Part shown: positions 18,229 to 24,655 of the stretch, piece after piece
How positions within the stretch are numbered: the first letter of the stretch is position 1
How the letters are laid out: the number at the start of each line of letters is the position of its first letter
Source: Betaproteobacteria bacterium TMED22
GTDB lineage: Bacteria > Pseudomonadota > Gammaproteobacteria > Burkholderiales > Eutrophovitaceae
Direction of reading: 5' to 3'
Length of the DNA: 64,000 bases
Assembly: GCA_002167745.1 (NCBI GenBank)
Contig: NHCB01000013.1
Coordinates: forward strand, 98,215 to 162,214
Made by a program: the position numbers and the translations under genes
Notes under the pieces: model-generated
What the model saw: only the letters and a program-made list of their open reading frames with translations
Database searches by the model: none
What the model was told of the DNA's origin: nothing

Positions 18229-19110
18229 TTACTTATTAGCCATTTGAGCCGCCACCTCCGCCGCAAAGTCATCAACCTTTTTTTCAATACCTTCGCCCAC
18301 AACATACAACGCGAAAGAATCAACCGACGACTTAGTTTCAGCCAAGAGTTTTTCGACAGTTTTTTTGTCGTCTTTCACAAAAATCTGACCATACAGCGTC
18401 ACCTCTGATAAATATTTTCTAACGCTACCGTCGACAATTTTCTCTACTATGTTCTCGGGCTTCCCTGACTCAACCGCTCGCGCCTTTGCAATTTCTCGCT
18501 CTCTATCGAGCAAAGCCTCGTCAACCTCAGCAGCCGATACGGCGACCGGCTTGACGGCCGCTATATGCATAGCCAAATCCTTCCCTAGCTCAGCTGTTCC
18601 ATCGATAACATCAACGACTACCCCAATTCGCCCACCATGAAGGTATGAAGCGAGTAACCCTTTCGCTTCAAATTTCTTCGTCCGTCTTACTGAGATATTC
18701 TCTCCGAGCTTCATTATCAACGCCTGCCTAACCTCTTCAACCGTTTCGCCACTAGGCAACGTTTGAGCAGAGATAGCTGACACATCGGTTTCACCTGAGC
18801 TGCTTACAAGATCAGCAATATTATTTGCAAAACTTAGGAAACTTGGGTCCTTCCCAACAAAGTCTGTCTCACAGTTCACTTCTACAATTGCCCCTTGTTT
18901 GGAATCCGCACTCATCGAGACGACAATGGCTCCTTCTGCGGCGACCCGCCCCGAGACTTTACTCGCCTTGGATCCACTTTTTATACGCATCAAGTCTTCT
19001 GCTTTTGTAAGGTCACCGTCAGTCTCCGTGAGCGCTTTTTTACACTCCATCATTCCAAGACCAGTTCTCTCCCTTAATTCCTTTACCAAACTCGCAGTAA
19101 TCTGCGCCAT
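18229..19110 (-). CDS. tsf: Elongation factor Ts
   Basis: Nucleotide exchange factor for EF-Tu. The N-terminal UBA-like domain reads [27 protein letters not shown], followed by the core with [16 protein letters not shown]. The track ORF starts 12 residues earlier at 19146. The ATG at 19110 matches the family N-terminus and has GAAGGAG upstream, giving 293 residues. It is separated from rpsB by a hairpin-plus-T-run, so its expression probably depends on partial readthrough. Confidence 0.97.
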
Positions 19111-19203
19111 CGTTTTCACTCCTTCGTACGTTTTTAATGCGTCCAACTTAAGGACTATCTAAACTTAAAACCTCAGGCCACAACATCATCAACAAGCAAG
19201 ATA

Positions 19204-19226
19204 AAAATATGGGGGCTTTTGCCCCC
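19204..19226 (-). terminator. rpsB-tsf intergenic intrinsic terminator/attenuator
   Basis: On the minus strand GGGGGC-AAAA-GCCCCC forms a perfect 6-bp GC stem with a 4-base loop, followed by ATATTTTTA. It lies about 25 bases after the rpsB stop and 90 before the tsf start. In E. coli the rpsB-tsf gap also carries a leaky terminator that sets the S2:EF-Ts ratio; the same role is inferred here. The plus-strand reading has no T run. Confidence 0.85.
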
Positions 19227-19249
19227 AAAATAACCTGCCTTCAGAGAAG

Positions 19250-20188: not shown

Positions 20189-20929
20189 TCAACGTCTTGA
20201 CCGCGTTGCCTCATATAAGGATATACCCACAGATACGCCAACATTAAGACTCTGAATAACATCCTCTATGGGAATAGACACCAGATGGTCACACGTGTCT
20301 TTTGTTAGTCGCCTAGCTCCATCCCCTTCGGCACCGAAGACTAAGACAGTCCGATCTGGAAATTTAAATTCTCTAATCGACTCTTTTGACTCACCATCAG
20401 TACCTACCACCCAAAAACCCACATCTTTTAAATTACGGAGCGATCTTGCCAGATTAGTAACCGTTATTAATGGGATTATTCCGGCCGCCCCACTGGCGAC
20501 CTTTTCAACTACATCAGTAATTCCAACGGAACGATCCTTGGGCACGATGACTGCGGCAGCACCGAACGCACATGCAGAACGCATAACTGCACCTAAATTA
20601 CGTGGGTCAGTTACCCCATCAAGTACCACTAATAATTGAGCTTGAGGTGCTGCAACAATAACATCCTCCAAGCTAGAAACATTCTCATCTAATATAATCG
20701 AAGCAATCACTCCTTGATGTGATACACCTGGGACCATCTTATTTAATCGCTCCGCATCGCAGCGTATAACCTGCACATTCGACTCATTGAGCCTCTCCTC
20801 CAATTTACGAATTCTGGCATCACGTCTCTTTTTATCAAGAAAGACTTCGTTTACAGCATTTGGACTATGCCGCACCCTTGCAAATACCGCATGAAAACCA
20901 AAAACAAGTGAATTTCCCTTATCTGACAT
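20189..20929 (-). CDS. rlmB: 23S rRNA (guanosine-2251-2'-O)-methyltransferase
   Basis: SpoU-family SAM-dependent enzyme that methylates the ribose of G2251 in the peptidyl-transferase P loop. An N-terminal substrate-binding domain (about 1-75, with VFGFHAVFARVRHSPN) precedes the knotted catalytic domain. Motifs are VLDGVTDPRNLGAVMRSACAFGA, VFGAEGDGARRLT and the C-terminal VSIPIEDVIQSLNVGVSVGI. Length is 246 residues. Its start lies inside the last codons of rnr (11-base overlap), so the two RNA enzymes are co-translated. Confidence 0.95.
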   Translation of the reverse strand: MSDKGNSLVFGFHAVFARVRHSPNAVNEVFLDKKRRDARIRKLEERLNESNVQVIRCDAERLNKMVPGVSHQGVIASIILDENVSSLEDVIVAAPQAQLLVVLDGVTDPRNLGAVMRSACAFGAAAVIVPKDRSVGITDVVEKVASGAAGIIPLITVTNLARSLRNLKDVGFWVVGTDGESKESIREFKFPDRTVLVFGAEGDGARRLTKDTCDHLVSIPIEDVIQSLNVGVSVGISLYEATRSRR

Positions 20930-23147
20930 GATCCATACCTTTTCGTCGATACACGCGCTTTAAATTGACGCGTCCATTCTCAATATCAGCTTGGCTTATA
21001 TAAACCTGCACGCTATCGCCCATTTGAAAAACCTGCCCTGTGTCGCTACCGACGAATGCCACGGCCCCATCATCGAGCGAAAAGAATTCACGGCCTAACT
21101 CTGAAACATGAAGTAATCCTTCTAAACACAGCTCTTCTATAAAAACAAAACAACCAAACGAAGCCACACTCACGATCCGTCCTATGTGCTCCTCACCAAC
21201 ATGCCGACCTGCAACTGTCGCAGTCAACCAACCATGCGTCCATCTTACTGCCTCCTCTACCTTTCGCTCATTAACCGAACAAAGGTCCCCCAATCCCTCT
21301 ATATCCGTCTCCCTATCGTAACTGCAGCCTAACTGGTTTTTGATAGCCCGATGAACTACTAAATCAGGATACCTTCGTATGGGCGACGTGAAATGAGCAT
21401 ATCTCTCATACGCTAGGCCGAAATGTCCGGTTGGCGTAGCTGTATACCGCGCTTGATTCATCGTTCTTAATACGGCAGTTTGTACAGAATCTACCGCAGG
21501 ATGATCGAGGCTTTCATTCAGAATTTTTAAGAAATCAGTGGGGCTTGGCCGATTAGGAAGCTGGAGTTCCAATCCGAGGCTCTGTAACAAATCAGCTAAT
21601 TTGACGACTTTTGCCGCATCCGGCTCAGGATGTGCTCTGTACAAAAATGGTTCCTGGCGATCATTGAGAAACTCAGCCGCAGCAACATTAGCGCACAACA
21701 TCGCCTCCTCAATCATCCTATTAGCAAAATACCGATTTTGTGTTTCTATAGAGGAGACTTGTGACTGGGCATCAAACAAAAATGCTGACTCACGAGCGTT
21801 AATCTCTAAAGCACCTCGATTTTTTCGCCTCTTTAGGAGCAAATAGGTAAGAGATTTTAGGTTAGTCAAGCTTTCATAAATATCCGGTGCCAAACTAAGG
21901 TCAGACATACATTCCGATTCACCTAACAATATATCGACGTCTTTATATGTCAAGCGCTGCTTAGAGTGGATTACGCTACTAAAAAATTCGGTTTCTATCA
22001 CGGTCGCATCGCTATCAAGTTCGATTTTTGCAACAACAACTAGCCGATCTTGATTAGGCTTTAAAGAACAAATCCCGGCCGACAGCTCCTCAGGAAGCAT
22101 TGGGATAACAGACCTTGGAAAATATACGCTTGTGCTTCTCTTACGGGCATCCTCATCTATCAAACTATGTTCGTTAACATAATGACTAACATCAGCGATT
22201 GCGACGTATAAGATGTAACCGTTCTCTACTTTCTCTATATAAACGGCGTCATCGAAATCTTTGGCATCAGGCCCATCAATTGTGACAAAAGGGAGATCTC
22301 TAAAGTCTGCCCTGCCCATGACAGCAGCCTCATCAACTGCCTCCGGTATATTCTCTATCTCGACATTCAGCGAAGCATCTCTAGGACCTGAAATACCAAA
22401 TTTATGCAGCGCTATTTTTACTTCAATTCCAGCATCACTAATTTTTCCTAGTCGCTCAACTAACTCGGCCGACCAAACCGCTGAGGACAAATCAAATTGC
22501 CCCAGCTCAGCGACAACTACATCTTCTTCGGATAGTTCAGCCAATACGTCGTCTGGCATACAAACCCTATCTTTTAATTCATTAGCCAGCACACGCGACA
22601 CTAGCCCCTGCCTCCTATGCTCTATAACCAAGACAATACGACGTGCCCCCCTTTGGCCCAGCACTAACGGGACAGCAAATGGTGCTCGACCGTGATTGGA
22701 GCTCAGCACTCTGAGCGCAATCATATGGTCTCCATTCAATAGACCTTGGGTTTCAGCTGGCCTAATATACCAATCCTCTACCCCATCATGCGTAAAGAAA
22801 CCGTAACCATCTCGATGCAATTCTACAGACCCCGAAGCCGCTTGAAATCGAGACCCCTTTAGCATAGATTGCTTTCTAACCAAAAGAAATTTAAGCCGTT
22901 CTAATTCTGCTATTTTCTGTTGAATAATTTTTTTCTTGTACCCGACAGATCGGCATTGATTTTCCACATCTGACGTTGCAACAGGGTCATCTGAAGACGC
23001 CAATATACCCAGTATTTTTCGCTGTAATTGATCAGGAAAAAATTCCTCATCTCTTTCTCGCTTTCGTGAAAATCCGTGACTACCACTTTTGCGTCTGCTG
23101 GAAGCTCCGCGATTCGCGCTGACACGATTAGATCTTTTTTTACTCAC
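20919..23147 (-). CDS. rnr: Ribonuclease R
   Basis: 3'-5' exoribonuclease that degrades structured RNA. The 742 residues show an N-terminal winged-helix region, cold-shock domains, and the RNB catalytic domain with DGPDAKDFDDAVYI (metal-binding aspartates), DVSHYVNEHSLIDEDA and HFTSPIRRYPDLVVHR. One S1 domain ends nearly at the stop. E. coli RNase R (813 residues) carries a basic tail after S1; here it is absent, and a lysine/arginine-rich stretch (SKKRSNRV...RRKSGS) is at the N-terminus instead. The start is GTG with no strong ribosome-binding site. Confidence 0.95.
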   Translation of the reverse strand: MSKKRSNRVSANRGASSRRKSGSHGFSRKRERDEEFFPDQLQRKILGILASSDDPVATSDVENQCRSVGYKKKIIQQKIAELERLKFLLVRKQSMLKGSRFQAASGSVELHRDGYGFFTHDGVEDWYIRPAETQGLLNGDHMIALRVLSSNHGRAPFAVPLVLGQRGARRIVLVIEHRRQGLVSRVLANELKDRVCMPDDVLAELSEEDVVVAELGQFDLSSAVWSAELVERLGKISDAGIEVKIALHKFGISGPRDASLNVEIENIPEAVDEAAVMGRADFRDLPFVTIDGPDAKDFDDAVYIEKVENGYILYVAIADVSHYVNEHSLIDEDARKRSTSVYFPRSVIPMLPEELSAGICSLKPNQDRLVVVAKIELDSDATVIETEFFSSVIHSKQRLTYKDVDILLGESECMSDLSLAPDIYESLTNLKSLTYLLLKRRKNRGALEINARESAFLFDAQSQVSSIETQNRYFANRMIEEAMLCANVAAAEFLNDRQEPFLYRAHPEPDAAKVVKLADLLQSLGLELQLPNRPSPTDFLKILNESLDHPAVDSVQTAVLRTMNQARYTATPTGHFGLAYERYAHFTSPIRRYPDLVVHRAIKNQLGCSYDRETDIEGLGDLCSVNERKVEEAVRWTHGWLTATVAGRHVGEEHIGRIVSVASFGCFVFIEELCLEGLLHVSELGREFFSLDDGAVAFVGSDTGQVFQMGDSVQVYISQADIENGRVNLKRVYRRKGMDHVR

Positions 23148-23179
23148 TCTAAAATGTAACCTTGTAATAATTAAATAAT

Positions 23180-23208
23180 TTGACAGGAATGTAGGGGCTA
23201 GCTAGAGT
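23180..23208 (+). promoter_or_regulatory. tRNA-Leu promoter
   Basis: Perfect TTGACA at 23180-23185, a 17-bp spacer, and TAGAGT (4 of 6) at 23203-23208, placing transcription start near 23215, a few bases before the tRNA 5' end at 23220. It is the closest match to a consensus promoter that I noticed in the window. It faces away from rnr, whose own start lies 33 bases to the left on the other strand. Confidence 0.8.
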
Positions 23209-23219
23209 CACGTTCCGCA

Positions 23220-23306
23220 GCCCGGATGGCGGAATTTATAGACGCGTCAGGTTCAGATTCTGGTGGTGGCAACACTGTGGAGGTCCGAGTCCTCTTCAGG
23301 GCACCA
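23220..23306 (+). tRNA. tRNA-Leu (anticodon CAG), with atypical invariant positions
   Basis: An 87-base class II tRNA including encoded CCA. It has acceptor GCCCGGA/TCAGGGC with one G.A mismatch at pair 5, D-stem GCG/CGC, anticodon loop TTCAGAT (CAG reads CUG), a variable arm with a GCAA loop, T-stem GGAGG/CCTCT, discriminator A and CCA. T8, A14, T33, A58 and C61 are normal. The D-loop reads GAATTTATAGA where tRNA-Leu has GAATTGGTAGA, so G18G19 are lost. The T-loop TCCGAGT has C at position 55. Both elbow contacts (18-55 and 19-56) are therefore broken. It may be decaying, redundant or a specialised RNA. It lies between rnr and purA, a tRNA-Leu location also found in Pseudomonas. Confidence 0.8.
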
Positions 23307-23344
23307 ATAACCTAAAAAATGATTCAGAGACGTCAATGCTGATC

Positions 23345-24655
<1,311 letters not shown>

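Follow-up and report, generated by a model that had tools for sequence, protein, structure and literature searches.

A tRNA-Leu(CAG) gene with a broken elbow, probably inactivated, between rnr and purA in a betaproteobacterial draft genome

The purA–rnr locus and its tRNA gene

The window analyzed here, a 64,000-nucleotide stretch of one contig from Betaproteobacteria bacterium TMED22, belongs to a 1.88 Mb draft genome of 17 contigs that is 95.3% complete. ARAGORN calls a single tRNA in the window, a tRNA-Leu(CAG) gene with an encoded CCA end at positions 23220–23306 of the + strand. The gene sits between the divergent neighbor rnr, encoding RNase R (20919–23147, − strand; Pfam RNB, 356 bits), and the convergent neighbor purA, encoding adenylosuccinate synthetase (23345–24640, − strand; Pfam Adenylsucc_synt, 599 bits), with rlmB, a HisRS-like gene, hflC, and hflK in line around them. 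Orthologs in six genomes of the same genus occupy the same purA–rnr slot, which is, as judged from synteny, the ancestral slot of tRNA-Leu(CAG) in the genus. An attachment site or mobile element at the tRNA was rejected, the neighbors being housekeeping genes in the gene order of the relatives.

The gene retains cloverleaf pairing, the long variable arm, a Leu anticodon, A73, and CCA, with one mismatch in the acceptor stem (ARAGORN, RF00005). The original prediction of an intact cloverleaf, variable arm, anticodon, and CCA therefore stands insofar as all of these elements are present or pairable, but the cloverleaf is not the predicted minimum-energy fold. Scoring against the Rfam tRNA family (RF00005), a check that the prediction had proposed, gives 35 bits, which is above the family gathering score of 29 yet the lowest value among the 35 tRNAs in the genome; the second-lowest scores 48.8 bits, and the orthologs of tRNA-Leu(CAG) score 49–51 bits.

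Upstream of the gene lies the promoter-like sequence TTGACA-17-TAGAGT (23180–23208, + strand), earlier described as a strong promoter. A scan for promoter hexamers returns three matches where 2.3 are expected by chance, so the scan alone lends no support, and we accept the site purely on conservation. It is kept in six of six congeners, five of which differ at 18–23 of ≈70 flanking positions, and because it has persisted despite these diverged flanks, TTGACA-17-TAGAGT is likely a real promoter.

The tRNA also lies at the edge of a tract with an unusual relationship to the nearest relative, G007. This tract (20447–23311) is ≈95% identical to G007, whereas the DNA outside it is ≈77–85% identical; positions 20720–21669 fall in a gap in the G007 assembly. 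The tract contains the end of rlmB, rnr, the promoter, and the tRNA, and it ends at the 3′ end of the tRNA, with identity dropping to ≈77–81% from 23312 on. By this alignment, the tRNA 3′ end coincides with a recombination boundary. The divergence of the tRNA from G007 (6 of 87 positions, 6.9%) is close to that of the surrounding tract (80 of 1427, 5.6%; p 0.6) and unlike that of the purA side (19%, p 0.003). Because it matches the tract and not the purA side, tRNA-Leu(CAG) was probably part of a segment exchanged between the window and G007 lineages that then drifted on the window branch, and the conserved tRNA sequence would be a natural crossover site for such an exchange. A second patch is found at ≈18647–19246, within part of tsf. 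These patches, 90–98% identical to G007 within DNA of ≈80% identity, resemble products of recent homologous exchange among congeneric species.

Private changes, constraint, and the elbow

Six sites in the gene differ from G007 (23237, 23238, 23259, 23285, 23297, and 23298), and at all six, in the alignment with six congeners, only the window genome deviates. The changes are GG18-19 to TA in the D-loop (23237–23238), C39T in the anticodon stem, which converts a G-C pair to G-U (23259), T55C in the T-loop (23285), and TC67-68 to CA (23297–23298), all on the + strand; the last makes pair 5-68 a G·A mismatch and turns pair 6-67 from G-U into G-C, which strengthens that pair. The D-loop thus reads AATT-TA-TAGAC versus AATT-GG-TAGAC in the relatives, and the T-loop reads TCCGAGT versus TTCGAGT. 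The replacement of G18G19 by TA, the C at position 55, and the G·A at pair 5-68 had been pointed out from the sequence, and the ortholog alignment confirms all three; C39T and T67C are additional private changes. The anticodon, variable arm, CCA, and promoter are free of them.

The orthologs in the purA–rnr slot of the six congeners (L039–L044) resemble the window gene in place, anticodon, promoter, length, and ≈90–93% of their bases, but they have GG18-19, T55, and C68, all four of which the window gene has lost; they are canonical at every changed site. Relatives carrying the same changed bases had been named beforehand as evidence against a broken tRNA, and we found none among the 29 aligned: GG18-19 and TTC54-56 are present in 29 of 29 (six of the same genus and 23 further). 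A genus-wide variant is accordingly rejected.

Relative to G007, tRNA-Leu(CAG) carries its 6 differences in 87 positions while four other tRNAs carry 0 in 336 (p 7e-5); relative to G003, it carries 9 in 87 compared with 22 in 2148 for 27 other tRNAs (p 1e-6). General decay of the tRNA set of the genome is rejected, as the other tRNAs are near-identical to those of the congeners. A tRNA divergence equal to that of the recombined tract is what would be expected without constraint. The gene thus bears the marks of a pseudogene in evolving as if unconstrained while its orthologs are conserved, and in scoring well under the other tRNAs of the genome, yet above the gathering score. The tRNA-Leu(UAG) of the window genome (L029:1501–1585) has a U·U at acceptor pair 6-67; because the same pair is shared unchanged with G007 and G003, it is by comparison a genus feature and not decay.

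With U/C at 18-55 and A/C at 19-56, the contacts of G18G19 with T55C56 are lost, as had been anticipated, and neither pair is compensated; we rejected a compensated elbow, since U18/C55 and A19/C56 are not substitute pairs. The importance of these bases to leucyl-tRNA synthetase (LeuRS) in E. coli, also part of the original prediction, agrees with a review reporting that G18G19 are essential for leucylation and that the G18:U55 and G19-C56 contacts matter (PMC9976931). In fold calculations, the cloverleaf of the window gene lies 3.8 kcal/mol above the predicted minimum, with a mean pair probability of 0.26, whereas seven intact orthologs have a cloverleaf whose energy equals or approaches the predicted minimum (mean pair probability 0.65–0.89). 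Altered stability, one of the readings proposed for this gene, is therefore upheld as a predicted consequence but not as a function.

We scanned a set of 84,980 species genomes, which excludes the window's own genome and maybe its species, for D-loops of this shape in which position 18 is any base but G. The scan returned 105 stretches, six of which lie in ARAGORN-called tRNAs (five Leu and one called Lys), all retaining G19; the remaining stretches are mostly coding DNA. No ARAGORN-callable tRNA-Leu with this D-loop shape lacked both G18 and G19 in these 84,980 genomes, and a D-loop variant known from elsewhere was rejected on the basis that all callable tRNAs kept G19. Viral contigs carry tRNA-Leu(UAG) genes with AC at 18-19 and the T-loop TGGGAGT (L186:4693–4710, L192:1960–1977, and L198:7206–7223, all − strand). 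Like the window gene, they are tRNA-Leu-shaped with both Gs replaced, but their T-loop can, by the pairing we infer, restore 19-56 as C-G, a compensation that the window gene lacks. This apparent exchange of G-C for C-G at 19-56 would be a natural compensated elbow. In a Clostridiales MAG, a tRNA-Leu(UAA)-like stretch with TT at 18-19 and no ARAGORN call (L094:2851–2868, + strand) is possibly another broken or interrupted tRNA-Leu gene.

Leucine isoacceptors and CUG decoding

A search for further Leu(CAG) or Leu(UAG) genes, suggested with the original prediction, found no second Leu(CAG) copy in the assembly, in which a further copy may be missing given its 95.3% completeness. Genes for Leu UAA, UAG, GAG, and CAA are all present with canonical D- and T-loops, and the intact Leu(UAG) is identical to that of G007.

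Across the order, a standard Leu(CAG) gene occurs in 276 of 299 genomes. Two complete, single-contig genomes (G314 and G251) encode Leu UAA, UAG, GAG, and CAA but no CAG, and G261 has the same CAG-less Leu set by pattern matches and its tRNA list; cmoB above the cut-off is absent in all three. Like the window genome, G314 and G251 have Leu(UAG) and lack cmoB, and would need to decode CUG in the absence of a functional CAG isoacceptor; the Leu(CAG) gene is gone from these genomes, whereas in the window genome it is present and damaged. A standard Leu(CAG) match is lacking in G314, G251, and other genomes of the order that are small or complete (genera g89, g123, g97, g54, and g44), which points to repeated loss of Leu(CAG); for G314 and G251 only, the absence is confirmed by type II tRNA listing.

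Synthesis of cmo5U34 is the role of cmoA and cmoB. In a search with E. coli as a positive control, both genes were absent from the window genome (G000) and all eight congeners, which gave only weak methyltransferase-like matches far under the cut-off. Given this genus-wide absence, we dropped cmo5U34 as the means by which tRNA-Leu(UAG) might read CUG. The genome also yielded no Pro(CGG) gene, although CCG is used. With neither that gene nor cmoA or cmoB to account for the use of CCG, decoding of G-ending codons by U34 tRNAs probably already takes place in this organism. This, together with the CAG-less relatives that lack cmoB, makes it plausible that tRNA-Leu(UAG) reads CUG. Among the three options originally offered, redundancy because a UAG tRNA can read CUG is the best supported, given the intact Leu(UAG), the CAG-less complete relatives, and private changes accumulating as fast as those in the DNA around the gene. 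Of the Leu codons in the window genome, 10.9% are CUG, compared with 9.3–10.9% in the congeners, an unshifted usage that would fit a recent loss and would fit a working or a misread gene equally well.

Interpretation of the altered gene

We favor as the probable explanation that an ancestral single-copy tRNA-Leu(CAG) gene, encoding a dispensable isoacceptor, was recently inactivated in the window lineage and is now drifting. The damaged tRNA is probably still transcribed from the conserved promoter. Its RNA would be unable to form the 18-55 and 19-56 elbow contacts, would carry the acceptor mismatch, and is predicted to adopt a non-cloverleaf fold, and for these reasons little or no charging by LeuRS is to be expected. 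Such an RNA should be degraded, which would leave CUG to be decoded by the intact tRNA-Leu(UAG) through U34·G wobble. Unchanged CUG usage implies that any loss is recent, but it also gives no sign of the loss being felt, and it speaks against inactivation together with the untouched anticodon, variable arm, CCA, and promoter and with the strengthening of a pair by T67C.

The main rival to inactivation, which we consider unlikely, is that the real gene is canonical and the draft misreports bases within the tRNA, for example because reads of different strains were mixed where a conserved tRNA lies on a strain-mosaic edge. The changes do fall in a conserved gene precisely where the identity of the window genome to G007 switches, the kind of place at which strains can become mixed in a metagenome assembly; two of the changes are adjacent doublets, and the genome is a 17-contig draft. 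Mixing of strains or species would, however, import functional alleles, and TA18-19 occurs in no callable tRNA-Leu among the 84,980 species, with all 29 relatives having GG. In addition, rnr and purA are open and show a normal purifying pattern by codon position, which leaves local error-prone sequence unsupported; relatives share the gene order across the site, and nothing looks amiss in the other tRNAs of the genome.

The retained anticodon, variable arm, discriminator A73, CCA, and promoter, as well as the CUG usage, would also suit a working but odd tRNA-Leu that decodes CUG, its broken elbow tolerated via modification, LeuRS co-adaptation, or another tertiary contact. tRNAs without GG or TΨC do exist (tRNA-Pyl and mitochondrial tRNAs; PMC7609411), as do the viral tRNA-Leu genes with AC at 18-19. 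We nonetheless regard this as improbable, because the viral case can restore the 19-56 pair and the window gene cannot, E. coli LeuRS needs G18G19 (PMC9976931), and the G·A mismatch and loss of the predicted cloverleaf add damage. Least likely of all is a leucyl-tRNA repurposed off the ribosome, for instance to feed leucyl/phenylalanyl-tRNA-protein transferase (Aat), by analogy with the cell-wall tRNA-Gly of S. aureus. In those nonproteinogenic tRNAs, GG18-19 is replaced by UU or CU and the elbow is weakened (PMC4052509), as in the window gene with its TA; aat is intact in the window genome, and three of the six changes sit within six elbow sites (p 0.003 post hoc; 0.02 counting doublets as single events). 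The S. aureus genes, however, stand beside proteinogenic copies, have T-stem pairs that weaken EF-Tu binding, and have a known consumer in the Fem enzymes, whereas the window gene, as the single Leu(CAG) gene found, has no canonical partner of the same anticodon. Moreover, aat also occurs in congeners with a normal Leu(CAG), Aat recognizes the aminoacyl end and not the tRNA body (PMC4052509), and charging by LeuRS would still be required. A non-translational RNA, as suggested earlier, is improbable and found no positive support. We would similarly give very little credence to an elbow broken under selection, in which tRNA-Leu(CAG) would still receive leucine yet be withheld from the ribosome or otherwise repurposed, with all CUG codons now decoded by a tRNA-Leu(UAG) that lacks cmo5U34.

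If the bases are real, inactivation of this gene would mean that the last copy of a tRNA isoacceptor has been caught in the act of loss, with intact orthologs in sister species as controls, complete relatives already without the gene, and unmoved codon usage. The organism would then offer a natural test of two questions: whether a tRNA-Leu(UAG) lacking cmo5U34 can decode every CUG codon by itself, and how fast codon usage responds to the loss of a tRNA.
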